Assembly: GCF_001425705.1 (NCBI RefSeq)
Contig: NZ_LMDC01000028.1
Span: forward strand, 787,536 to 851,535
Reading direction: 5' to 3'
Length of the DNA: 64,000 bases
Origin: Pelomonas sp. Root1217
GTDB lineage: Bacteria > Pseudomonadota > Gammaproteobacteria > Burkholderiales > Burkholderiaceae_C
Shown: positions 21,151 through 32,966 of the stretch, in pieces
Position numbering within the stretch: position 1 is the stretch's first letter
Layout of the letters: every line of letters begins with the position of its first letter
The notes under the pieces: model-generated
Databases searched by the model: none
What the model saw: the letters and a program-made list of their open reading frames with translations, nothing else
What the model was told of the DNA's origin: nothing
Made by a program: the position numbers and the translations under genes

Positions 21151-21426
21151 TTGACTCTCCCAAACAAAAAGAGGTGCATTCTTCTGTTCGGTAGTCACAG
21201 ATAAATAGGTAGGTATCCGTCCCATCTTGTTGGGACGTTTGGAAGCAACGCGGGCGCTCTCGAGCTGTGGCGTAGACCTTGGAGATTCGGTGAATCGATA
21301 AACCCCGCCAGCCTGCGAGACTGCACGTACAGGTCACCAAACTCGGGCCTGGCGAAAGAGACCTCCGGATCGCATGCGCAACGGCGCCACCCAGGCCTTT
21401 TCCGGGCTTCAGGAGCTGCGCCGGGC

Positions 21427-21513
21427 CAGCAGGATCGGCGACGCATCAAGGAGCTCGACCGAGATCTGCGACGCAAGAACAACGCCCTGGCCGAGACGAC
21501 AGCACTGTGGCGA
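21427..21513 (+). pseudogene. IS3-family transposase OrfA remnant
   Basis: Reading frame 1 here encodes RRRIKELDRDLRRKNNALAE followed by TTALWR. This matches the C-terminal coiled-coil signature of IS3-family OrfA proteins (commonly RIKELERELRRKDKALAETAALL). The frame has no start codon and hits a stop at 21535, and no OrfB or terminal repeats are visible. It is probably a decayed insertion sequence. The surrounding stretch 21151-21580 holds nothing else I can support as a gene. Confidence 0.5.
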
Positions 21514-21580
21514 AGCGCATCGCGTTTCAGCGGATAGCACTTTGCTCGCTGCGGCGAAACCGATGGCTGGCGGACGCCAT

Positions 21581-22093
21581 TCACATGTCTCCCAGCGGAA
21601 TACCGGCGCCCTTCTCATCGGCGTCAAGGGCCACGATCAACTGGGCCAGGTCCTTCTTGAGCCGGCGCAGCGTGGGTGCATCCAACGCCCGCAGCGCGCC
21701 GGGCAACACGCCGGCAAAGGGACCGGGCGCCTTGCGCAAGGTCCTTGCGCCTTCTGGCAGAAGATAGAGCTGGACGGATCTCCGGTCAGCGCCTTCCCTT
21801 CTCACTTCCACCAGTGATTTGGCGATCAAGGCCTTGACCAGATTGCTGGCCGTGGACTGATGAATGTCCATTGCGCGTGACAAGTCATTGACGCCGACGC
21901 CGGGCCGCTGCTGGACGATGCTCAGCGCCCAAACCTGGGCTCCGCCAAGCCCCGACTTCTTCTCGACCTGCTGGAAGTGCGTCTTGACGGTGTTCAGCAC
22001 CTGCCGGAACTGTCTCAGCACATGCGCAGCGTCCTCATTTTGCCGGGTATCCGCAGAAGGCTCGGGAATGCTGGTGGTGCGTTGGCTGACCAT
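21581..22093 (-). CDS. MarR family transcriptional regulator
   Basis: A 170-residue MarR-type regulator. The central winged helix includes LGGAQVWALSIVQQRPGVGVNDLSRAM then DIHQSTASNLVKALIAKSL and the wing VEVRREGADRRSVQLYLL. The N-terminal 30 residues are polar. Start ATG at 22093 lies 7 bp after the ybdK-like stop, without a clear ribosome binding site, so translation is probably coupled. It ends an operon OmpA-like lipoprotein / antiporter / YbdK / MarR. Two matching 18-bp palindromes at 25126 and 29668 are the likely operators (inference), which would make the operon self-regulated. Confidence 0.88.
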   Translation of the reverse strand: MVSQRTTSIPEPSADTRQNEDAAHVLRQFRQVLNTVKTHFQQVEKKSGLGGAQVWALSIVQQRPGVGVNDLSRAMDIHQSTASNLVKALIAKSLVEVRREGADRRSVQLYLLPEGARTLRKAPGPFAGVLPGALRALDAPTLRRLKKDLAQLIVALDADEKGAGIPLGDM

Positions 22094-22100
22094 CGACAAA

Positions 22101-23237
22101 TCATAAGGACGTGACCGGTGCCGAGTTGCGGAACCGAGCGAGTGCGGCGTCCACCATGCCCTCCGGGCTCCCGCGCTCGCCATGCTGTTGACGCAGGTAG
22201 GTCGCGTCGCTGCCCTCGTGCGTGGCCTGGTACAGGTGATCGAGCGCCGCGCGGCTCCCCAGCCGGTCGGCATGGGGTTCCAGGTGCCGCAACGTCGCAA
22301 GGATGTCCTCGCGCAACGACAGCGTTTCATAGCCCTTGGGATGCACGATGGTGCCGTCAAGACCGAAGCGGCAGGCTTGGAAGCGGTTGTAGTTGTAGAC
22401 CAGATAGTCGTCCTCAACCGGCGGTGGCTCGGTGCGCTCCAGGAGGTGGGCGCACAGCGCCTGCAGGTAGCAGGCCAGCGCTGCCGCCCGCTCCACGGTG
22501 AGTGGCGTGTCGCAAACCCTGAGTTCAATGGTGCCGAACTCCGGCTTGGGGCGGATGTCCCAATAGAAGTCCTTCATGCTCTTGACGATGCCGGTGCGCT
22601 CCATGTGCGCAAAGTAGCCTTGCTCGAATCCGCGCCAATCCAGCACGAAGGGCGCGCGACCGCTCAATGGGAAGGCGAACACGGAGTTCAGCCGCGCCGA
22701 GTTGAACAAGGTGTCCTTGCCCTGAACGAATGGCGAGGACGCGGACAACGCAATGAAGTGCGGCACGTAGCGGTTCAGCGAGTGCAGCAGGAACATCGCA
22801 TCGTCACCTGAGGCGCAGCCGACGTGCACGTGCTGCCCGAAGATGGTGAACTGCTTGGCCAGGTAGCCGTATAGCGCAGACACCTCCTTGAACCTCGGCT
22901 TCGAGTAAATCTTGCGCTGGCTCCATTGTTGGAAAGGGTGCGTCCCACCGCCGGCAACACCGACGTTGAGCGTGTCGCCAGCGCGCACCAGGGCATCACG
23001 GATGTCCCGCAGCTGAGACAGCAGGCCCGTGTGAGACGTCTGAATGTCCGTGGAGATCTCGATCATGCTTTCGGTGATCTCAGGCACCACGTTGCCAGGG
23101 AACCTTGTGCGCCCCAACAGGTCGAGCATGTCCGGACTGGCATCGATAAGATCAAAATCGCTCAGCGAGACGAGCTGCAGCTCGAGCTCGACGCCCAGCG
23201 TCAAGGCGGCTGACTTGGTAAAGGCTTCGAGGGCCAT
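22101..23237 (-). CDS. YbdK-type carboxylate-amine ligase (GCS2 family)
   Basis: A 378-residue ATP-dependent ligase of the GCS2 family; E. coli YbdK has weak gamma-glutamylcysteine synthetase activity. Conserved segments: [72 protein letters not shown] and [15 protein letters not shown]. Its start codon directly follows the antiporter stop (TGAATG), so the two are coupled. Role in making gamma-Glu-Cys or another gamma-glutamyl product is inferred; the substrate cannot be read from sequence. Confidence 0.9.
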
Positions 23238-24425
23238 TCAGTGCTCCGCCGATTCGTGGGTTTCCCGCGCCGAGATCAGGGCGCGCTGCGTCACCACGGG
23301 TCCGGCCAGCTCCAGCAGCAAGGTCATGGCGGCCAGGGGCGCGAGTTGGTCGACAAGGTCCACTCCCAGATAGCGCGCCTGCTCAAGCAGCAGGATGACG
23401 AAGACGGATATCGGCATCATCGCGACCCCCGTCAGCATGCCCTTGCGCGCCGAGATCCCACTCCAGCGGGCGAACAAGGTGACGCCGATCACCTTGGCGA
23501 CAGCCCGCGCGGCGATCAACCCCAGTGCCAGACCGAGCCCGCTGATGACGCGTTGCCATTCCAGCGTGCTGGCGACGAACATGAACAGCACCACGGTCAG
23601 TAAGTCCCCGAGAGCCCCGAAGTTGCGCTGGGTCGCGCTGAAGGTGACGCGCCGATGGCGCGCCATCAGGCCGAAGGTCAGGGTGGCCAGCACGGGCGAC
23701 AGCTTGAAGGTATGCGCCAGCGCGACCAGCAGCATGACCGAGATGGCGAACGCGATCGTCGCGTCGCGGCTGAGGTTGCCCAGACGGCGCAGCAGCGCCG
23801 GCACGGTCATACCGAACAGTGCGCCGAGCGCCACAGACGCGGCAAGAAGCACGACGCTGTTCAGCGCGGCCTGCACCAGGCTCCCCGAGCTCTGGAAAGT
23901 CCAGACGCCGACGATCACCTTGAAGGTGAACACCGCCAGTACGCAGTTCAGGCCGGTCAGGTGGATCAGGCGTTCCGTGACCTGCCCCGAACTGCGCTGC
24001 TCGTTGACCACGCGCATCACCGCGGCCGGCGACGTGGACATCGTCAGCGACGCCAGCAACAGTGCCGTGAGCATAGGCAGCCCGCAAAGCAAAGCCAGCA
24101 GCATCACGCAGCCAAAGGTCAGTGACGACTCCAGCAGGCCGCTTGCTGCCAGCCAAGGGTTGTGCCGCAGCCAGTTGAGGTTGATGCGGTAGCCGAACTC
24201 GAACAGGATCAGGCCAAAGGCGATGTTGGCCAGCAGCATCGCCGTGCCGCCCATGGTCATTGACAGCAGCCCGGCCTGCGCTGGCCCGAGCGCGAATCCG
24301 ACGATGCCATACAGGCTGATCCGCGGCAGCCGGGTCCACCGATGGCCCAGTTCGCCGATCACCCAGGCCAACACGACGGCCATGGGCCAACCGAGTTCCT
24401 GCAGCGCAATCATTCCACCAGACAT
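23238..24425 (-). CDS. CPA2-type cation/proton antiporter
   Basis: An integral membrane protein of about 395 residues with around 11-12 hydrophobic segments, of the Kef/YbaL-like monovalent cation:proton antiporter-2 family. LASLTMSTSPAAVMRVVNEQRSSGQVTERL is the recognisable core segment. No cytoplasmic KTN/RCK nucleotide-binding domain follows, so it is a short transporter-only form. The start is uncertain: ATG 24425, ATG 24413 or TTG 24467; none has a strong ribosome binding site. It is coupled to the YbdK-like ligase, an arrangement that recalls glutathione-gated Kef systems. Confidence 0.85.
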   Translation of the reverse strand: MSGGMIALQELGWPMAVVLAWVIGELGHRWTRLPRISLYGIVGFALGPAQAGLLSMTMGGTAMLLANIAFGLILFEFGYRINLNWLRHNPWLAASGLLESSLTFGCVMLLALLCGLPMLTALLLASLTMSTSPAAVMRVVNEQRSSGQVTERLIHLTGLNCVLAVFTFKVIVGVWTFQSSGSLVQAALNSVVLLAASVALGALFGMTVPALLRRLGNLSRDATIAFAISVMLLVALAHTFKLSPVLATLTFGLMARHRRVTFSATQRNFGALGDLLTVVLFMFVASTLEWQRVISGLGLALGLIAARAVAKVIGVTLFARWSGISARKGMLTGVAMMPISVFVILLLEQARYLGVDLVDQLAPLAAMTLLLELAGPVVTQRALISARETHESAEH

Positions 24426-24514
24426 GGGGCCCCACAAAAAGAAGCACCTCGCCGGTGCCCAAGCCAATTGGCCCGCCTGAGCTCACGCGACCAGCGGGCT
24501 CGTGGCCGCCGTCG

Positions 24515-25072
24515 TTATTTGCTGCCGGGCGCGAAGGGGTACACGATGTCCGCCCGCCGGTTCTGCGCCCAGTCCGCTTCGTCGTGCCCCACGGCACGGG
24601 GCTTCTCCTTGCCGAAGCTCACAGCCTCGACCTGCGAATCCCGAACACCGAGCACCATCAGCGCTGACTTGACCGCCTCTGCCCGACGTTGCCCCAGGGC
24701 CAGGTTGTATTCCCTGCTACCCCGTTCGTCCGTATGGCCCTCTACCCTAACCTGCAGCGTCGGCATGCCAGCGAGGTAGTTGCCGTGGGCCTCCACCAGG
24801 CGTTGGTCCTGCCCGCGCAACGACGAACCGTCGTAGTCGAAGTACAAACTCCGCTCGCGGTACAGCAGGTTGTTCGGATCCAGATGGGCAGCGACCCTGG
24901 GGGCCATGGGTGCCGCCGGAACCGGACGGCCTGTCGTGCTCGCCGCGGGCGCAGTGGACGGCGGCCCGGCATAGCTGACGCTTTTGGCAGGGTCGACCAC
25001 CGTCGTGTTGCTGCATGCGGCCAAGATCAAGGAAAGGGCGCAAAGCGCCGCGCGTGACTTGAGGGTGCTCAT
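24515..25072 (-). CDS. OmpA/Pal-like lipoprotein
   Basis: A 185-residue lipoprotein. The signal MSTLKSRAALCALSLILAAC places the lipidated Cys at residue 20. A Pro/Ala/Thr-rich linker (about 30-60) leads to an OmpA-C peptidoglycan-binding domain with LYFDYDGSSLRGQD, VEGHTDERGSREYNLALGQRRAEAV and NRRADI. It resembles Pal but has no tolB or cpoB next to it, so it is an accessory paralogue. It is the first gene of the minus-strand operon and divergent from the ClC gene, with the putative MarR operator between. Confidence 0.88.
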   Translation of the reverse strand: MSTLKSRAALCALSLILAACSNTTVVDPAKSVSYAGPPSTAPAASTTGRPVPAAPMAPRVAAHLDPNNLLYRERSLYFDYDGSSLRGQDQRLVEAHGNYLAGMPTLQVRVEGHTDERGSREYNLALGQRRAEAVKSALMVLGVRDSQVEAVSFGKEKPRAVGHDEADWAQNRRADIVYPFAPGSK

Positions 25073-25125
25073 GTGACATCGGCCGGGGCAGCCGGCCCGG
25101 GAATTGGCAACACAAGCGTAACATA

Positions 25126-25143
25126 TACATTTGTGCAAATGTT
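25126..25143. promoter_or_regulatory. 18-bp palindromic operator, putative MarR site 1
   Basis: TACATTTGTGCAAATGTT is an imperfect dyad (TACATT / AATGTT around TGTGCA) in the 77-bp divergent region between the OmpA-like lipoprotein and the ClC gene. It matches site 2 at 29668-29685, read on the minus strand, at 16 of 18 positions. It ends 6 bp before the ClC ATG. Size and symmetry suit a MarR dimer, and a MarR gene closes the adjacent operon. Confidence 0.6.
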
Positions 25144-25149
25144 ATACCC

Positions 25150-26538
25150 ATGACACCTCCAACCCACCTGCAGCCTGAGCAGCCCGACGTCGTCGCATCG
25201 ATCCGCGATGATTTCGCGGACTGGCGCCAATGGCTGGGTCGGTTCGTCGTCCTGCTGTTTGCGGTGCTGGCCGGCGTATCGGTGGTGGCCTTCACATGGC
25301 TGTGCGAGCGCGCGCTGAACGGTTTTGTCGCCTTGCGGACGTTTCACGCCTGGTGGCCGTTCATCTGGACGCCTCCGTGCCTCGGCGCGCTGGTCTGGCT
25401 GACACGGCGCTACGCGCCTGGTGCTGCCGGCTCAGGCATCCCGCAGGTGATGGCCGCACTCGATCCAACGGTTGATGAGCAGGACCGGCGGCTGTTCGTG
25501 TCGCTGCGCCTCAGTGCGGCGAAAGCCGTGCTCACTGCGGGCGGACTGATGGCGGGCCTTGCCACCGGGCGGGAAGGACCGTCGGTGCAGATTGCCGCCG
25601 GCGTCATGCAACACGCCCGCCGCTGGCTGCCCAAAGGAGCGCCCGTGTCCAACCACGGCCTGCTGACCGCCGGCGGTGCCGCGGGAATCGCGGCCGCGTT
25701 CAACGCGCCGCTGGCCGGCGTCATGTTCGCGATCGAGGAGCTGAGCCGACGCATCGAGCAACGCAACAGCGGCCTGATCATCTCTGCCATCGTGCTGGCC
25801 GGCCTGATGGCCGTGTCGGCCTTCGGCAACTCGACCTACTTCGGCGTGATCCGGGTCCCGCCGCTGGAGCCGGGCTTCCTGTTTCCGGCGTTGCTCGTGA
25901 CTCTGGCGAGCGGAGTTCTGGGGGGCTTGTTCTCTCGCCTGCTCCATGCGTCGCTGGTGGGCACGCCGGACCGGTTCAGCCGCTGGCGCAAGGACCATCC
26001 CGTGATGTTCGCGGCGGCCTGCGGGCTGGCTATCGCGTTGATCGGCTGGGCCAGTGGCGGCGCCAGCTTCGGCAGCGGTTACGACTACACGCGGCGTCTG
26101 CTGGAGGGGCAGACCGACATGCCGTTGCTGTATGTCACTCTGCGTTTCGTGGCGACCTGGCTGGCGGCTTGGTCCGGAGTGCCGGGCGGTATCTTTGCGC
26201 CTTCGCTGGCCATCGGCGCGGGCATCGGCGCCGACGTGGCGCTGCTCACAGGTTGGACAGCCAGTTCATCCGCCTTGATCGCGCTGGGCATGGCGGGCTT
26301 TCTGGCCGCCGTGACGCAGGCGCCGCTTACCGCCTTCATCATCGTCATGGAGATGGTGGACGGCCATGCCATGGTGCTCAGCCTGATGGCGGCCGCGCTC
26401 GGGGCCAAGCTGGTATCCCGCTGGATCAGCCAACCGCTCTACAGCACGCTGATGCTGGCACAACTGGCGCGGCTGCAGCCGATACTCACGCCGCAATCCA
26501 AGGCCACGGGCTCCGCCGGCGAGCGCCCGATCTCCTGA
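25150..26538 (+). CDS. ClC family chloride channel/antiporter
   Basis: A 462-residue membrane protein of the ClC family. Selectivity-filter motifs are clear: GSGIPQVMAAL (about 96-106), GREGPSVQIAAGV with the gating Glu, and GGIFAPSLAIGAGIG. FNAPLAGVMFAIEEL contains the internal Glu that in CLC-ec1 marks Cl-/H+ exchange, so an antiporter is more likely than a channel. No CBS domains. The ATG has no Shine-Dalgarno sequence and lies 6 bp after the palindromic operator, so the mRNA may be leaderless or the true start may differ. A Na+/H+ antiporter follows after 22 bp. Confidence 0.92.
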   Translation: MTPPTHLQPEQPDVVASIRDDFADWRQWLGRFVVLLFAVLAGVSVVAFTWLCERALNGFVALRTFHAWWPFIWTPPCLGALVWLTRRYAPGAAGSGIPQVMAALDPTVDEQDRRLFVSLRLSAAKAVLTAGGLMAGLATGREGPSVQIAAGVMQHARRWLPKGAPVSNHGLLTAGGAAGIAAAFNAPLAGVMFAIEELSRRIEQRNSGLIISAIVLAGLMAVSAFGNSTYFGVIRVPPLEPGFLFPALLVTLASGVLGGLFSRLLHASLVGTPDRFSRWRKDHPVMFAAACGLAIALIGWASGGASFGSGYDYTRRLLEGQTDMPLLYVTLRFVATWLAAWSGVPGGIFAPSLAIGAGIGADVALLTGWTASSSALIALGMAGFLAAVTQAPLTAFIIVMEMVDGHAMVLSLMAAALGAKLVSRWISQPLYSTLMLAQLARLQPILTPQSKATGSAGERPIS

Positions 26539-26560
26539 CCCAACACTCCCTCTCTGCACG

Positions 26561-27829
26561 ATGTCCCTCGCTTCCGCCGGCCCCGCTGGGGCCACCGAAT
26601 GGGTCGCCCTTGTGTTGTTCGCGCTGGCGTTGCTTCACACGTTCGCGACCAAGTCCTTCGAACGCCTCGCGCACCGCAACGCCCGCCATGCCGGCGTGTT
26701 GCACCTGCTGGGCGAGGTGGAGGTCGTATTCGGGTTGTGGGCCGCCGTGCTGCTGCTGGCCATGGCGGCGATCAACGGCGGGGCGGCCGCGCTGACCTAT
26801 GCCGAATCGCGGCAATACACCGAGCCGCTGTTCGTCTTCGTGGTGATGGTCGTCGCCGCGTCCAAGCCGGTTCGGGCCACCGCTTCGTCGCTCGTTGCCC
26901 TGCTCGCGAGGCTGCTTCCGGTGTCAACGCCGATCGCGTCCGTCTGGCTCGCGCTGTCGTTCGTACCCCTGCTGGGCTCCGTGGTCACGGAGCCTGCGGC
27001 CATGACGCTGGCGGCGCTGATGTTGCGCGACCAGGTGTTCCGGCCAGGGCCACCCGAGTGGACCAAGTACGCGGCGCTCGGCGTCCTGTTCGTCAACGTA
27101 TCGATCGGTGGAACTCTGACGTCATACGCGGCGCCGCCGGTGTTGATGGTGTCGGGCACCTGGGGCTGGACCACCGGATTCATGTTCACCACTTTTGGCT
27201 GGAAGGCGGCCGTGGCCGTCGCCATCAACGCGACCGCGGTGGTGTGGCTCCTGCGCCGTCATCTGCGTGGCCTTGCGCAAGCCGACGCGCCAGCGCGAGT
27301 GCCAGGCGTGATCCAGTTGGTGCATCTGGCGTTTCTTGCCGGTGTGGTCGTGTTTGCACACCATCCCGTCGTCTTCCTGGGCCTGCTGCTTTTCTTCATG
27401 GGCTTCGTGCAGGCCTACCCGAAGCACCAGGAACCGTTGATCCTGAAAGAAGCGCTGCTGGTGGCGTTCTTCCTGGCCGGCCTGGTGGTGCTGGGCGGCA
27501 TGCAGCAATGGTGGCTGCAGCCGCTGGTGTCGTCTCTGTCGCCCATCGCGCTGTTCTTTGGCGCGGTCGGCCTGACGGCCATCACCGACAACGCAGCGCT
27601 CACCTACCTGGGCTCGCTGATCGAAGGCATCAGCGACCCCGCCAAGTACATGCTGCTGGCCGGCGCGGTAGCGGGCGGCGGCCTGACCGTGATCGCCAAT
27701 GCACCCAACCCCGCTGGCGTGGCCTTGCTGCGGCAGGGTTTCGATGATGAATCCATCGGCGCCGGGCCGTTGCTGCTGGCCGCCCTGCCGCCCACGATCG
27801 TCGCAGCAGCTGCGTTGCTGCTGATGTAG
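26561..27829 (+). CDS. putative Na+/H+ antiporter (PF07399-like)
   Basis: A 422-residue membrane protein with about 11 hydrophobic segments. Recognisable segments are LLGSVVTEPAAMTLAALMLRD, FVNVSIGGTLTSYAAPPVLM, GLTAITDNAALTYLGS and ANAPNPAGVALL, which resemble the putative Na+/H+ antiporter family of arsenite/ion-transporter-superfamily membrane proteins. It is downstream of the ClC gene by 22 bp, so both are probably under the same operator. The ion specificity is by family only. It is convergent with the DUF5985-like gene, 4 bp between stops. Confidence 0.82.
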   Translation: MSLASAGPAGATEWVALVLFALALLHTFATKSFERLAHRNARHAGVLHLLGEVEVVFGLWAAVLLLAMAAINGGAAALTYAESRQYTEPLFVFVVMVVAASKPVRATASSLVALLARLLPVSTPIASVWLALSFVPLLGSVVTEPAAMTLAALMLRDQVFRPGPPEWTKYAALGVLFVNVSIGGTLTSYAAPPVLMVSGTWGWTTGFMFTTFGWKAAVAVAINATAVVWLLRRHLRGLAQADAPARVPGVIQLVHLAFLAGVVVFAHHPVVFLGLLLFFMGFVQAYPKHQEPLILKEALLVAFFLAGLVVLGGMQQWWLQPLVSSLSPIALFFGAVGLTAITDNAALTYLGSLIEGISDPAKYMLLAGAVAGGGLTVIANAPNPAGVALLRQGFDDESIGAGPLLLAALPPTIVAAAALLLM

Positions 27830-27833
27830 TGTG

Positions 27834-28109
27834 CTACTTGCCGCGCGGCCGGTTCTTGTCCCAGATGGCCAGCAGGATGAGGCCATACGACAGTAGGCGC
27901 ACGCCGTAATGCGTTGGCGTGTCTTCGTTCCACGAAGGCGTCAACGCCATGTGGATGCGGTTCGCAGCCTCGATCCAGAACGACAGCATGAAGAACAGGA
28001 AAAACCTGTCGCGGGTGCTGCGCCAGTAACGCAGGAAGAACAAGCCCGCAACAAAGGTCAGCGCGGCGATGCCGCCCAGCAGGAAAGAGTTCAGCGTGTC
28101 GGTGTTCAC
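27834..28109 (-). CDS. small membrane protein, DUF5985-like (1)
   Basis: A 91-residue protein with three hydrophobic segments (about 8-27, 38-52, 67-82). FLLGGIAALTFVAGLFFLRYWRSTRDRFFLFF and the FWIEAANR segment resemble DUF5985 proteins. The GTG start overlaps the stop of the upstream gene by 4 bp (GTGA), which fixes the start. It is the last gene of a four-gene minus-strand unit. Function unknown; this gene and the next look like diverged copies of one family and may form a heteromeric membrane complex. Confidence 0.75.
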   Translation of the reverse strand: MNTDTLNSFLLGGIAALTFVAGLFFLRYWRSTRDRFFLFFMLSFWIEAANRIHMALTPSWNEDTPTHYGVRLLSYGLILLAIWDKNRPRGK

Positions 28110-28366
28110 CGATCGCCCTCGATGACCAGGCCAGTGACCAGCAGCGTCATCGCCACCAGCGCCAACAAGAGCCGCCAAGAAGACAGGTCGACATGAGTGA
28201 ACAAGGTCTTGTCGAGCACGAGCAGGACATTGTTGGCCGTCAGCCCGACGAAGCAGAGGCCGCTCCAAAGCAGGATTCGAAACCCTGACCTGGCGTGGCT
28301 GCGCAGCAGCAGGAAGGCACAGGTCAGGGCGGTCAAGGCACACAGGCCGTAAATCAGCTTGTCCAC
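28106..28366 (-). CDS. small membrane protein, DUF5985-like (2)
   Basis: An 86-residue protein, mostly membrane-spanning: helices at about 2-20, 30-50 and 62-80. It shares the style of its downstream neighbour (LIYGLCALTALTCAFLLLRS, FRILLWSGLCFVGLTANN). The GTG start lies 1 bp after the stop of the upstream gene, and its stop overlaps the next start, so the string is tightly coupled. Function unknown. Confidence 0.72.
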   Translation of the reverse strand: MDKLIYGLCALTALTCAFLLLRSHARSGFRILLWSGLCFVGLTANNVLLVLDKTLFTHVDLSSWRLLLALVAMTLLVTGLVIEGDR

Positions 28367-28367
28367 G

Positions 28368-28748
28368 TCAGCTGTCCTTTCGCCACTTGAAGGCATCCGC
28401 AAAGCGCAAGGCGCTCTTTTGCGTCGCGTCATGAATGAGGTTGGTCACGCCCACCAGATTCTCTCGGTAGGCCTGCTCCAACCGTTCTACCGATGCAACC
28501 AGCGTCTCGTCGGGCGCATACCAGTAACGCTCGTCCTCGCAGGCAAGAATGCGCGCACTGCACAGCGACTGCAGCAGCTCAGTGACCGCACGATCCTGCA
28601 GATACAGGGCCCGGGCCACCTCCGCAACCGTCCGCCGCACAGACGGCTCGCGATGGAAAAGCAGCATCGCTTCAAGGTGCGGCACGGAAGGCACGCTGGT
28701 CAGAACGAAGCGTGTGACGTCATCGGGGATGCTGCGCGGCTGGCTCAC
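28368..28748 (-). CDS. putative winged-helix protein of unknown function
   Basis: A soluble protein of 126 residues from the GTG at 28748 (an in-frame start at 28856 would overlap the DUF3014 gene and extend it to 162). The central region LEAMLLFHREPSVRRTVAEVARALYLQDRAVTELLQSLCSARIL has the helix spacing of a winged-helix domain, followed by a wing-like RYWYAPDE. The C-terminal 45 residues look helical and coiled. It lies between DUF3014 and the two small membrane proteins, so it may regulate or cap that membrane module. Confidence 0.62.
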   Translation of the reverse strand: MSQPRSIPDDVTRFVLTSVPSVPHLEAMLLFHREPSVRRTVAEVARALYLQDRAVTELLQSLCSARILACEDERYWYAPDETLVASVERLEQAYRENLVGVTNLIHDATQKSALRFADAFKWRKDS

Positions 28749-28806
28749 TCCGCGCCCGACAAGAAGATGTACTTCGTCTCCGGCATGTACTCCGCTCCCA
28801 TGCGCA

Positions 28807-29646
28807 TCAGTGCGTCGACCCAGATTCAGCCAGCAGCTCTCTTTTAAGCTGCACAAGCCGCGTTTTTATCCGACGTTCGTTGACGGGGCCGAGGCGCAAC
28901 AGCCATTTCTGACCCGCGGACAGCGACTCCAATGCAGGGTCGGCAAACTGGTAGAGAACCCAAGGACGCGGTGGCTGAACTGAGGGATCGAACGCTGGCA
29001 GCTTCACCTCGAGCGGGCCGTCCGGCACGGGCGCATCGAGCAGATGGTCGACGACGGCCAGCAGGCGGTCGTTGAATCGGCCCTTCGGGTATCCCAGCTC
29101 GACGTAGGCGGCTTGCAGCATGGGGTACATGCGGCGATAGAGATCTGCCAGTTGGGCCATGTCGACCGTCTCGACCAGCAGCAACAATGGGGCATACCGC
29201 AGTCCGTTGTCGGGATCGATGTAGCTGTGGCCGCCCTGCTGGCGTACCGTGAAGCGGTCGGGCGTTGGATTGACGGGCCACAGGCGCGACGACGCCTGCT
29301 GGCGATCCATGTTGTCGACCGTGGCAACCACCCGGTGCGCGAAGTCATCGACCCGGAGCTGGCTGGCGACCACCTTGCGCCCGAGCAGCTCGATCAGCGC
29401 ATCTCCGACGCCCGCGGGCGGCAATGGATCGGCGGGTGCAGGTTCGGGCACGGAGGCGGCGGGCGCGATGGGAGGCAACGCGACGGACGCTGCAGACACC
29501 GGAGCAGATGCGGCCAAACCTGCCGACGGGAGTTCTGACGCGAGACGGGCCCGGGCCTCGTCCCGCTGCTGACGGACATACCACGCACCGGCCAGAACTC
29601 CCGCGGTGAGCGCTGCAAGAGCGGCGACTTTCAACGGGGTGAGCAT
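28807..29646 (-). CDS. DUF3014 domain protein
   Basis: A 279-residue protein with one N-terminal membrane helix (about 5-22) and a Pro/Ala-rich spacer to about residue 75. The DUF3014 domain follows (LGRKVVASQLRVDDFAHRVVATVDN, then RQQGGHSYIDPDNGLRYAPLL and YPKGRFNDRLLAVVDHLL). This topology places the domain in the periplasm. Its function is not established. It is the first gene of a minus-strand unit ending with two DUF5985-like proteins. A palindrome matching the ClC-region operator lies 22-39 bp before the ATG, so shared MarR control is likely. Confidence 0.82.
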   Translation of the reverse strand: MLTPLKVAALAALTAGVLAGAWYVRQQRDEARARLASELPSAGLAASAPVSAASVALPPIAPAASVPEPAPADPLPPAGVGDALIELLGRKVVASQLRVDDFAHRVVATVDNMDRQQASSRLWPVNPTPDRFTVRQQGGHSYIDPDNGLRYAPLLLLVETVDMAQLADLYRRMYPMLQAAYVELGYPKGRFNDRLLAVVDHLLDAPVPDGPLEVKLPAFDPSVQPPRPWVLYQFADPALESLSAGQKWLLRLGPVNERRIKTRLVQLKRELLAESGSTH

Positions 29647-29667
29647 GAGTCGAGATCGCGGGAAAAC

Positions 29668-29685
29668 TACATTCGCACAAATGTA
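29668..29685. promoter_or_regulatory. 18-bp palindromic operator, putative MarR site 2
   Basis: TACATTCGCACAAATGTA has perfect outer arms (TACATT / AATGTA) around CGCACA. On the minus strand it reads TACATTTGTGCGAATGTA and differs from site 1 (25126) at two positions only. It lies just upstream of the DUF3014 gene. Two such AT-rich, near-identical dyads 4.5 kb apart in GC-rich DNA are unlikely by chance. Confidence 0.6.
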
Positions 29686-29812
29686 CCATCGGCGGTGAAA
29701 CGATCCCCCAATGACACCGCGAAATGACCCTTCCCCTGGCGGTGCATCGCCCGCTCTCAGCCGCTTTGTCGACCTTGCCGCAATCAGTGCCGTAGCAAGC
29801 GCAATGCCGGCG

Positions 29813-30542: not shown

Positions 30543-32966
30543 CTAGACGAGCGGTGGATCCGTCTCACGCTCGGGGTGACGGTGACGGACCAGGCCGCGG
30601 ATCAGCGCGTCAGCCCCCGTGGCGGCGTCGCTCGTCAACGTGATGCCGGGGTCGGGCTGGCCATCGGGCAGCGTCGTCGGCACGCCGGCGAGCTCCAGCA
30701 GGTCCTGCGCGGTGCCCAGCGCGAGCAAGGTTTTGCAGTGCCGGTACTGGTCTCGAATGCCGTCCAGCGCGCGGGCGTCGCCCGACAATGCAACGATGGC
30801 CGCAACGCCATCCGCGAGCACCAGCGCGTCAAAGAGAAAGCCCGGCTCGTTTTCGAACGAGGCATCCGCCTGCAGTTCGACGCCGTCCTCCGTCGCTACC
30901 GGCCCGATGCGGCTGGCGATGAAACGCGGCACGGCGCCCGCCTCCAGCAGCCGTGCATGCACGCCGGCCACGCTTTCGCCGATGCAGCCGTCGGCAATGT
31001 AGACCGCCACCTTGCGGCCATGGATCGACCCGTCGCCCGGCCGTGCCAGCAGCGACAGCGGCGGCGAGCGGGTCACCTCCGGCTCGATGTCGCGGTCCAG
31101 TGCCTTTGGCATCGGCTCGGGCAGGGGCGAGATGTTCAGCCCCTCGGCGACTTGGGCGGCCAACGTCTCGGACGCGTTTCTGAGCATGGACACGATGCGC
31201 TCGCGCACAGCCGGCACCGTCACTTTGCTCAACTCGAAGCGGAACGCTGCGGCGATGTGGGCCTGTTCCGCCGGTGACTGACTGTTGAAAAACAGCGCCG
31301 CCTGGTTGTAGTGCTCCGCGAAGAGTTCCGGCTTGGCCCGGACCTTGGCCTCGTCCTCGCGGGCGCGCAGCCGCGCCGCCACTGAAGTGAACCCTTGTGC
31401 GGCGCCAGCCTGGAAGGGGCAGCCGCCGCCCAGCGAATTAGGCTCATAGGCCACCCGGCCACGGTGGATGGCCTGGCGATGCATGCCGTCGCGCTGGTTG
31501 TTGTGCACCGGCGCGATCGGCGAATTGATCGGGATCTCGTGGAAGTTGGGGCCGCCCAGGCGCGAGATCTGCGTGTCTACGTAGGAATGGATGCGGCCGG
31601 CCAGCAGCGGGTCGTTGGTGAAGTCCAGGCCCGGGATGATGTTGGCCACGCAGAAGGCGATCTGCTCCGTCTCCGCGAAGAAGTTGTCGGGGTTGCGATT
31701 GAGCACCATGCGCCCGACCGGGCGGATGGGCACCAGCTCTTCCGGAACGATCTTGGTCGCGTCGAGGATGTCGAAGCTGAAGGCTTCGGCCTGCTCCTCG
31801 GTGAAGACCTGCAGGCCCAGCTCGTACTCCGGATAGGCGCCGCCCTCGATGCGCTCCCAGAGGTCGCGGCGGTGGTAATCCGGGTCGGCGCCGGAGATCT
31901 TCACAGCCTCGTCCCAGGCCAGGGAATGAGTGCCGTATTTCGGGCTCCAGTGAAACTTGACAAAGACCGACTCGCCCGCGCCGTTGACCAGCCGGTAGGT
32001 GTGCACGCCAAAGCCCTGCATCGTGGCGTAGCTGCGCGGGATGGCGCGGTCGCTCATCAGCCACATCAGCATGTGGGTGGACTCCGGCATCAGCGACACG
32101 AAGTCCCAGAAGGTGTCGTGTGCGCTGGCGGCCTGGGGCATCTGGTGGTGCGGCTCGGGCTTGACGGCGTGCACGAGGTCGGGGAACTTCATCGCGTCCT
32201 GGATGAAGAAGACCGGCATGTTGTTGCCGACCAGATCCCAGTTGCCTTCGTCGGTATAGAACTTGACGGCGAAGCCGCGCACGTCACGCGCCGTGTCCTT
32301 GGAACCGCGCTCGCCCGCCACTGTCGAGAAGCGCACGAAGACCGGCGTGATCTTGCCGTCCTGCTGGAAAGGCGCAGCCTTGCTGAGCTCGGGAATGGCC
32401 TGAGTGCACTCGAAGAAACCGTGCGCGCCGGAGCCCCGCGCATGCACGATGCGCTCAGGGATGCGCTCATGGTCGAAATGGGTGATCTTGTCGCGCAGGA
32501 TGAAGTCTTCGAGCAGCACCGGGCCCCGCGTGCCGGACTTCAGCGAGTTCTGGTTGTCGGCGATGGGCACGCCCTGGTTGGTCGTCAGCCGCTGGCCGCT
32601 GCCATCCACCCGCACGCGGTCCAGTGCCGCCGTCGTCGGATTGCTGCCCTCGCGGGCCACGCCACCGGTTTTCGCCGAGGCGTTGGACTCGGACAGCGTG
32701 CTGGCTGTGGGCAGGCGCGAAGGCGGCGCCACGCTGGTGCCGGCGGGCGGATGCTGGCCGTTGTCCATGCCGTGCTCGGCCGCCTTGTTGGCGTTGAAGG
32801 GCATGGCCGCTGCGACGTCGCCCGTCTCGGCGGCCCTGCGCGCGGCGGCATCGCCATCGCCGGACGGCCCGACCTTGGCGGGCCCGCTGTCGGTGTTGCG
32901 GGCAGCGGCCTTGGCTGCGGTTGTTTTCTTGTCGGCACCGCTGACGGTCTTGCGGGATGTGGGCAT
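30543..32966 (-). CDS. katE: large-subunit catalase (HPII type)
   Basis: An 807-residue monofunctional heme catalase, cytoplasmic, converting H2O2 to water and O2. A polar, low-complexity N-terminal extension (about 1-110) precedes the core with [24 protein letters not shown] (distal His region), [24 protein letters not shown] and [13 protein letters not shown]. From about 650 there is the extra flavodoxin/GATase-like domain ([33 protein letters not shown]) that defines the large clade-2 enzymes. Length is close to or slightly above the usual 700-760, due to the N-terminal extension. Confidence 0.96.

Follow-up and report, generated by a model that had tools for sequence, protein, structure and literature searches.

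Two matching palindromes and a MarR-family regulator mark a putative osmotic-stress regulon in Pelomonas sp. Root1217 and its relatives

Are two matching 18-bp palindromes in the genome of Pelomonas sp. Root1217 the operators of a single MarR-family regulator? The stretch that holds them, hereafter the window, comprises 64,000 nucleotides of contig NZ_LMDC01000028.1 (positions 787,536 to 851,535), and the palindromes lie in front of three transcription units, pal-cpa-ybdK-marR, clc-nhaP-like and a unit of a DUF3014 gene, a winged-helix gene and two DUF5985 genes. An earlier sequence-only reading had proposed that the two dyads mark one MarR regulon. That proposal is supported by the rarity of the dyad in the genome, by the tracking of dyad and MarR over 299 genomes and by the absence of the dyad from the same promoters in genomes lacking the MarR. 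Our interpretation, to which we give a probability of about 0.8, is that the MarR encoded at 21581-22093 would bind both dyads, repress the three units and be released by an osmotic or ionic rise. Comparison with relatives argues for the operator, the pairing of regulator and operator and the target set, and we infer the repression, the release signal, the autoregulation and the physiological role of each product.

The palindromes are found where the sequence-only reading placed them, TACATTTGTGCAAATGTT at 25126-25143 on the plus strand and TACATTTGTGCGAATGTA at 29668-29685 on the minus strand, and they do agree at 16 of 18 positions, the differences being confined to positions 12 and 18. Each is a near-perfect inverted repeat having 8-bp arms and a 2-bp centre. 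The first putative operator, TACATTTG-TG-CAAATGTT, lies between the pal-like and clc genes, 6 bp from the ClC ATG (25150) and 53 bp from the lipoprotein ATG (25072). The second, TACATTTG-TG-CGAATGTA, lies upstream of the DUF3014 gene, 21 bp from its ATG (29646). Site 1 overlaps the only sigma-70-like match in 24900-29800 (one found; shuffles gave a mean of 0.4), a promoter-like TTGGCA-16-TACATT at 25104-25131 in which the -10-like hexamer TACATT forms the first six bases of the site. Just beyond the upstream arm, on its outer side, three positions were A/T-rich across 85 oriented sites, and the actual operator may therefore be about 24 bp.

The dyad is rare. When the window was scanned for the consensus with up to three mismatches no further match was found besides the two dyads, and 100 shuffles gave 0. 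In the whole genome (6,645,945 bases in 32 contigs) the two dyads were the only sites with at most one mismatch, and both lie within 8 kb of marR. Allowing two mismatches added a single site, on contig C12, inside an open reading frame (ORF) of 451 residues that reads by eye as a metallophosphoesterase. Hence, across the complete genome the motif is not common outside promoters, the situation that the sequence-only reading had named as damaging to the regulon, and the sole two-mismatch site is within an ORF. With a free centre and three mismatches one extra site appeared, on contig C28, and a reversed control pattern likewise gave 1.

The dyad recurs around the MarR gene in relatives. At a threshold of E ≤ 1e-15, MarR matches were present in 61 of 299 family genomes, which gives the base rate. 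A set of 61 loci was assembled: the window itself, the surroundings of 59 of the 67 non-window MarR matches, and a genome chosen because it carries the motif. The selection of L092 and of the window was not independent of the motif. The dyad variants in MarR loci read TRYATTTG-NN-CAAATRYA. With at most one mismatch to TRYATTTGNNCAAATRYA we found 45 sites in 34 of the 61 loci, and none in ten Markov shuffles or in the reversed sequence. Against the 45 sites of the real dyad, the average over 60 permuted-arm palindromes was 0.07; at the two-mismatch limit the real pattern gave 78 sites and the permuted palindromes a mean of 0.55 and at most 5. A separate group of 30 permuted-arm palindromes gave at most 1 site at the one-mismatch limit, and one of them reached 44 at the two-mismatch limit. 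A larger set of 124 distinct MarR loci held 72 sites (at most one mismatch) in 58 loci. This set includes 80 loci from named genomes, whose names are mostly those of Burkholderiales (Roseateles/Pelomonas, Rubrivivax, Ideonella, Azohydromonas, Ramlibacter, Massilia and others), together with a few records having only a class or phylum name, one labelled Silanimonas and one labelled Vitreoscilla. As the ORF caller over-extends some N-termini, flags that placed sites inside a gene were not used.

Searches of entire genomes gave the same association. A strict pattern derived from the window occurred in 13 of the 299 genomes, 10 of which (the window's own genome included) have the MarR (p = 1e-5). 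Exact matches to a relaxed pattern occurred in 17 genomes, 15 with the MarR (p = 9e-10), although this pattern had been fitted to MarR loci, which makes the strict result the cleaner one, and the genomes share descent, such that both p values overstate independence. By hand comparison of the tables, 14 of the 20 places matching the relaxed pattern exactly lie within 10 kb of a marR. Three of four other exact sites in MarR-containing genomes, located off the marR contig, precede ClC/DapB-like (L097), OtsA/GH15 (L098) and sucrose-synthase-like glycosyltransferase (L107) genes. OtsA and ClC are themselves enriched in genomes having the MarR, which is present in 23 of 42 OtsA genomes and 48 of 128 ClC genomes.

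The same promoters were also compared with and without the MarR. For 30 OtsA loci and 30 ClC loci only the promoter region was scanned, with up to two mismatches. A site preceded OtsA in 11 of 17 genomes having the MarR and in 0 of 13 lacking it (p = 2e-4), and preceded ClC in 11 of 18 versus 0 of 12 (p = 6e-4). At one mismatch the OtsA counts were 7 of 17 versus 0 of 13. If matches from the whole 3.6-5.4-kb locus are admitted, the ClC count rises from 11 to 13 of 18 and that of OtsA stays at 11 of 17; the promoter-restricted figures are the ones used here. The direction is uniform throughout, the p values being optimistic given shared ancestry.

The genes that follow the dyad in relatives suggest what the regulon does. 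The 124 MarR loci encode, in variable order, ClC (62), Pal (34), OtsA (33), OtsB (23), YbdK (19), GH15 (17), CPA-type antiporter (16), NhaP-like antiporter (15), DUF3014 (15), Na/Ca exchanger (10), the winged-helix protein (9), MscS1 (9) and MscS2 (9), and more rarely DUF5985a, DUF5985b, OpuAC and DapB-like proteins (7 each) and Usp (5). We counted a gene as site-bearing if a site with at most two mismatches lay within 300 bp upstream. The shares were high for GH15 (14/17), DapB-like (5/7), Pal (24/35), OtsA (22/33) and DUF3014 (9/15), and lower for ClC (20/62), OpuAC (2/7), winged-helix (2/9), Na/Ca exchanger (2/10), MscS (1/9 and 1/10) and Usp (1/5). By Pfam the products encoded behind dyads include trehalose-6-phosphate synthase, trehalase-like GH15, ClC, Pal-type lipoprotein, MscS, the glycine-betaine binding protein OpuAC and cation exchangers. 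Osmotic-stress regulons typically contain genes for making and recycling compatible solutes, for mechanosensitive channels, for binding osmolytes and for exchanging ions. As the dyad-preceded genes of relatives are those of trehalose metabolism, MscS, betaine binding and ion exchange, control by osmotic or ionic stress is the likely function of the regulon, to which the sequence-only reading had assigned none.

Gene order was also compared in individual relatives. In L109 (Pelomonas sp. Root405) a dyad is followed on one strand by DUF3014, winged-helix, CPA, YbdK and MarR genes, and thus members of the first and the third group of the window would there form one putative operon. L110, a Roseateles metagenome-assembled genome, has the window's layout of the first two groups, NhaP-like-ClC and Pal-CPA-YbdK-MarR flanking a two-mismatch site. 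In L045 the order behind the dyad is OtsA-OtsB-winged-helix-DUF5985-DUF5985, with MscS on the opposite side. The region L066:7294-15581 carries four dyads (at most one mismatch) in about 7 kb, near genes for ClC, a DapB-like protein, the OpuAC betaine-binding protein, MscS and a Na/Ca exchanger. A separate observation concerns the OtsA of L084:5852-8191, which, like that of L098, has an N-terminal extension of about 290 residues before its GT20 domain (residues 295-760); hydrophobic segments at 6-24 and 201-219 flank a hydrophilic stretch, as in the input module of a sensor kinase, and a Pfam search with residues 1-296 gave no match.

The regulator itself (21581-22093, minus strand) scores above the curated cut-offs of PF12802 (44.6 bits, cut-off 27) and PF01047 (34.4 bits, cut-off 24.6). 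Of the 61 MarR orthologues, 48 contain no cysteine, the window protein among them; there is no conserved redox cysteine and a thiol redox MarR of the OhrR type was rejected as unlikely. Membership in the Saro_0803 family (NF053777) was also rejected, the protein scoring 41.3 bits versus an equivalog cut-off of 200. A profile of the MarR family applied to 20 regions around ectoine synthase found seven MarRs at 57-85 bits, and eight other MarRs of the window genome scored 14-29 bits. The reverse profile was weak: the window protein scored 59-62 bits and other MarRs of its own genome at most 55, one of them outranking several orthologues. A tree with the ectoine-locus and own-genome MarRs was poorly resolved, with long branches, and was not used as proof. 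Several residues of the window MarR are shared by the ectoine-locus MarRs and, less often, by six other own-genome MarRs: R30 (7/7 and 3/6), Q53 (7/7 and 2/6), T81 (7/7 and 1/6), P123 (7/7 and 0/6), P125 (6/7 and 0/6) and H39 (5/7 and 0/6). Besides H39, F40 and W55 count as conserved. Among the proteins tested the window MarR thus appears nearest to the ectoine-locus (EctR-like) MarRs. A plasmid search for close MarR relatives returned only distant matches (28 records, with identities of 42% or less, confined to short stretches), and a PDB search with the protein gave only general MarR matches.

Among known systems the closest is EctR/EctR1, a MarR-type repressor of ectoine genes; by profile the nearest relatives found were the seven ectoine-locus MarRs. 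AT-rich 8-2-8 dyads, such as TATTTAGT-AC-ACTAAATA, lie among other palindromes near two of the seven ectoine-locus MarRs and have a geometry like that of the window dyad; the binding site of EctR1 itself is said to have the 8-2-8 geometry. The window dyad was not found at the seven ectoine-locus MarR regions with up to two mismatches. The window genome lacks ectoine synthase, the operator letters differ, and the targets are trehalose, ion-exchange and envelope genes. EctR overlaps the -10 region and represses, its cue being given as unknown in the passages of PMC5924519 that treat it. According to passages of PMC7876524, CosR of Vibrio is a single MarR-type regulator that represses several unlinked osmotic-stress operons at low salinity. 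The CosR consensus TTTGA-NN-TCTAA, as quoted in a passage of PMC8070244, shares the 2-bp centre of the TTTG-NN-CAAA core of the window dyad and differs in its letters. CosR, compared here by description, acts on genes for making ectoine and betaine and for transporting betaine, unlike the window MarR. The link to ectoine and betaine synthesis that characterizes EctR and CosR is not seen, the targets being different and the OpuAC betaine-binding gene being site-bearing in only 2 of 7 cases. Hence, an EctR/CosR-like mode of action would fit the shared residues and the 2-bp-centred dyad, but we do not file the protein as an EctR or a CosR because operator letters and targets differ.

Other osmotic regulators were compared by description only. 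PA3458 of Pseudomonas aeruginosa is a MarR-type osmoadaptation regulator controlling synthesis of the osmoprotectant N-acetylglutaminylglutamine amide (NAGGN), for which passages of PMC8070244 report over 300 chromatin immunoprecipitation sites and an imperfect 15-bp motif, as against two genome sites and a clean dyad here; the same paper reports that gel shifts with PA3458 were unsuccessful even though chromatin immunoprecipitation worked. GbsR, OpcR and OpuAR of Bacillus (MarR-type or GbsR-family) are repressors tied to osmoprotectant uptake and synthesis (PMC7396694, PMC6207618), and their hosts and targets differ from those of the window MarR.

In the mechanism that we propose, a MarR dimer would sit on each dyad at low osmolarity, at or next to the promoter, and block transcription of the three units. 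The dyads beside start codons and the overlap of site 1 with a -10-like hexamer agree with such promoter blocking. Raised osmolarity or internal ion load, sensed as ionic strength or through an osmolyte, would weaken MarR binding and the three units would come on together. Their products would exchange Cl-, Na+ and K+ for H+, the Pal-type product would strengthen the link of outer membrane and peptidoglycan, and a gamma-glutamyl product would come from the ligase. The switch would, in relatives, govern genes that make and recycle trehalose, encode mechanosensitive channels or take up osmolytes. Autoregulation is plausible because marR is the last gene of the site-1 operon.

Several observations weigh against this picture, in addition to the limits on the co-occurrence statistics given above. 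The pairing of dyad and MarR is incomplete in both directions. The strict pattern also occurs in three genomes lacking the MarR, and two exact dyads in such genomes (L099:1501-1518 and L190:1501-1518) precede ORFs that read by eye as parE-like and acetyltransferase-like. Conversely, 66 of the 124 MarR loci have no site at one mismatch and 35 have none at two. In the fixed-target comparison 6 of 17 OtsA and 7 of 18 ClC promoters of MarR-containing genomes lack a site at two mismatches, five of these OtsA promoters (G309, G157, G240, G114 and G216) being at least five mismatches away, and at one mismatch the ClC difference (2/18 versus 0/12) is not significant. For 17 of 77 sites no gene was called as starting in the 350 bp that follow. 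YbdK (0/19) and OtsB (0/23) have no site of their own and the NhaP-like gene rarely does (2/16), such that these would have to be co-transcribed as downstream operon genes. No -35 element was enriched upstream of the 85 oriented sites (sum 227; shuffle mean 216, maximum 234); overlap with a promoter is therefore not general, and the notion that a dyad arm generally serves as the -10 element, paired with a conserved -35, is unsupported. Autoregulation is weakened by the finding of a site (at most two mismatches) within 300 bp upstream of only 25 of 126 marR copies, and by a terminator-like hairpin after the first gene of the site-1 operon (24442-24460, minus strand, between the pal-like and antiporter genes; one of six such sites in 21400-24900, where shuffles gave a mean of 2.0), which could partly uncouple marR from operator 1. 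The window genome encodes neither OtsA nor ectoine synthase, and thus its osmotic role rests on the relatives. Finally, the ect genes of a Methylomicrobium alcaliphilum ectR mutant are still salt-induced, according to passages of PMC5924519, so that even in the closest regulator known, salt-driven release is not the full explanation.

If the dyad is the MarR operator, the signal might still be something other than osmolarity, such as a small ligand or a general stress of another kind (envelope, pH, chloride or desiccation). Such signals would suit the targets in the window, where a lipoprotein and a ligase accompany ion/proton exchangers in a genome without OtsA and ectoine synthase, and would also suit the Usp-family and DapB-like genes among the targets in relatives. 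However, GH15 and OtsA, together with Pal and DapB-like genes, have some of the highest site-bearing shares in relatives, and the MscS, OpuAC and sucrose-synthase-like genes are also site-bearing; the scarcity of cysteine in these MarRs makes a thiol redox signal unlikely. We therefore consider a non-osmotic signal rather unlikely, but worth keeping in mind.

We think it quite improbable that the dyad belongs to another regulator with the MarR as a bystander. The obvious candidate is the winged-helix protein of the third operon, which is encoded behind site 2 and has a predicted fold that may bind DNA, but its gene is found in only 9 of the 124 MarR loci, versus the 58 loci with a site (its presence was scored in these loci, not in whole genomes), and at fixed targets the dyad was present only in genomes having the MarR. 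The two copies in the genome could in principle be a chance match or a mobile repeat, as there are only two. This we regard as refuted for practical purposes by the shuffles, which predict none, by the whole-genome tracking of the MarR and by the fixed-target control; moreover, in many genera the dyad occurs at promoters that are not homologous to one another and whose flanking sequences are unrelated. The preferred reading is thus still that the dyads are operators of an osmotically released MarR repressor.

A MarR-type osmotic regulator is a known kind of protein, but the operator, the target set and the host group appear to be new. In a full-text literature search no title or abstract start among the matches listed described this regulator, dyad or gene set, and a full-text search for DUF3014 and DUF5985 found no paper. 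For the control of osmotic stress in a large group of bacteria from soil and freshwater, for which none was seen among the matches listed, the analysis names a specific operator, its regulator and a set of targets. It also ties the uncharacterised families DUF3014 and DUF5985 to a physiological setting and offers a simple test case for the signals of such MarRs, since this EctR-related repressor has a small regulon, with just two operators in the genome. A broader synthesis, which we hold only tentatively and at less than even odds, is that an EctR-related MarR widespread in Burkholderiales runs a modular osmotic regulon in which the cargo is reshuffled and the operator kept. DUF3014, the winged-helix protein and the two DUF5985 proteins would then form an unknown envelope device of that response, and the window genome, without OtsA-type trehalose synthesis, would depend on exchanging ions, anchoring the envelope and making a gamma-glutamyl product.

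The gene calls of the sequence-only reading were confirmed by Pfam and NCBIfam (OmpA/Pal, Na_H_Exchanger, GCS2/YbdK, MarR, Voltage_CLC, Na_H_antiport_3, DUF3014 and two DUF5985). Upstream of marR on the minus strand the first unit encodes the Pal-type OmpA lipoprotein (24515-25072; PF00691 and TIGR02802 above cut-off), the CPA-type cation/proton antiporter (23238-24425; PF00999, its start set by homology to L092 and L109) and the YbdK family carboxylate-amine (gamma-glutamyl) ligase (22101-23237; PF04107, and NF010040 at 562 bits with a cut-off of 425). The plus-strand unit encodes a ClC chloride channel/exchanger (25150-26538; PF00654), which is ClcA-like but below the ClcA equivalog cut-off, and a putative NhaP-like Na+/H+ antiporter (26561-27829; PF07399, 598.5 bits).

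The third unit, on the minus strand, is adjoined by a large gene that reads by eye as catalase-like (30543-32966, minus strand); because this gene occurs in only 2 of the 124 MarR loci, neither time with an upstream dyad, it probably lies outside the regulon. The DUF3014 protein (28807-29646; PF11219) has by hydropathy one N-terminal hydrophobic helix, and its predicted model (mean predicted local distance difference test score, pLDDT, 81) opens with a long helix at 4-38. For the following small conserved protein (28368-28748, GTG start by homology), labelled winged-helix, there was no significant Pfam match, but in the predicted model, from an alignment of nine homologues (mean pLDDT 84), three helices are followed by a hairpin and then by two more helices, which agrees with the helix-helix-helix-hairpin arrangement that winged helices have. 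The unit ends with the two DUF5985 small membrane proteins (PF19447), both with GTG starts: a (28106-28366), with three hydrophobic segments, and b (27834-28109), whose call rests on PF19447 and the reading frame.

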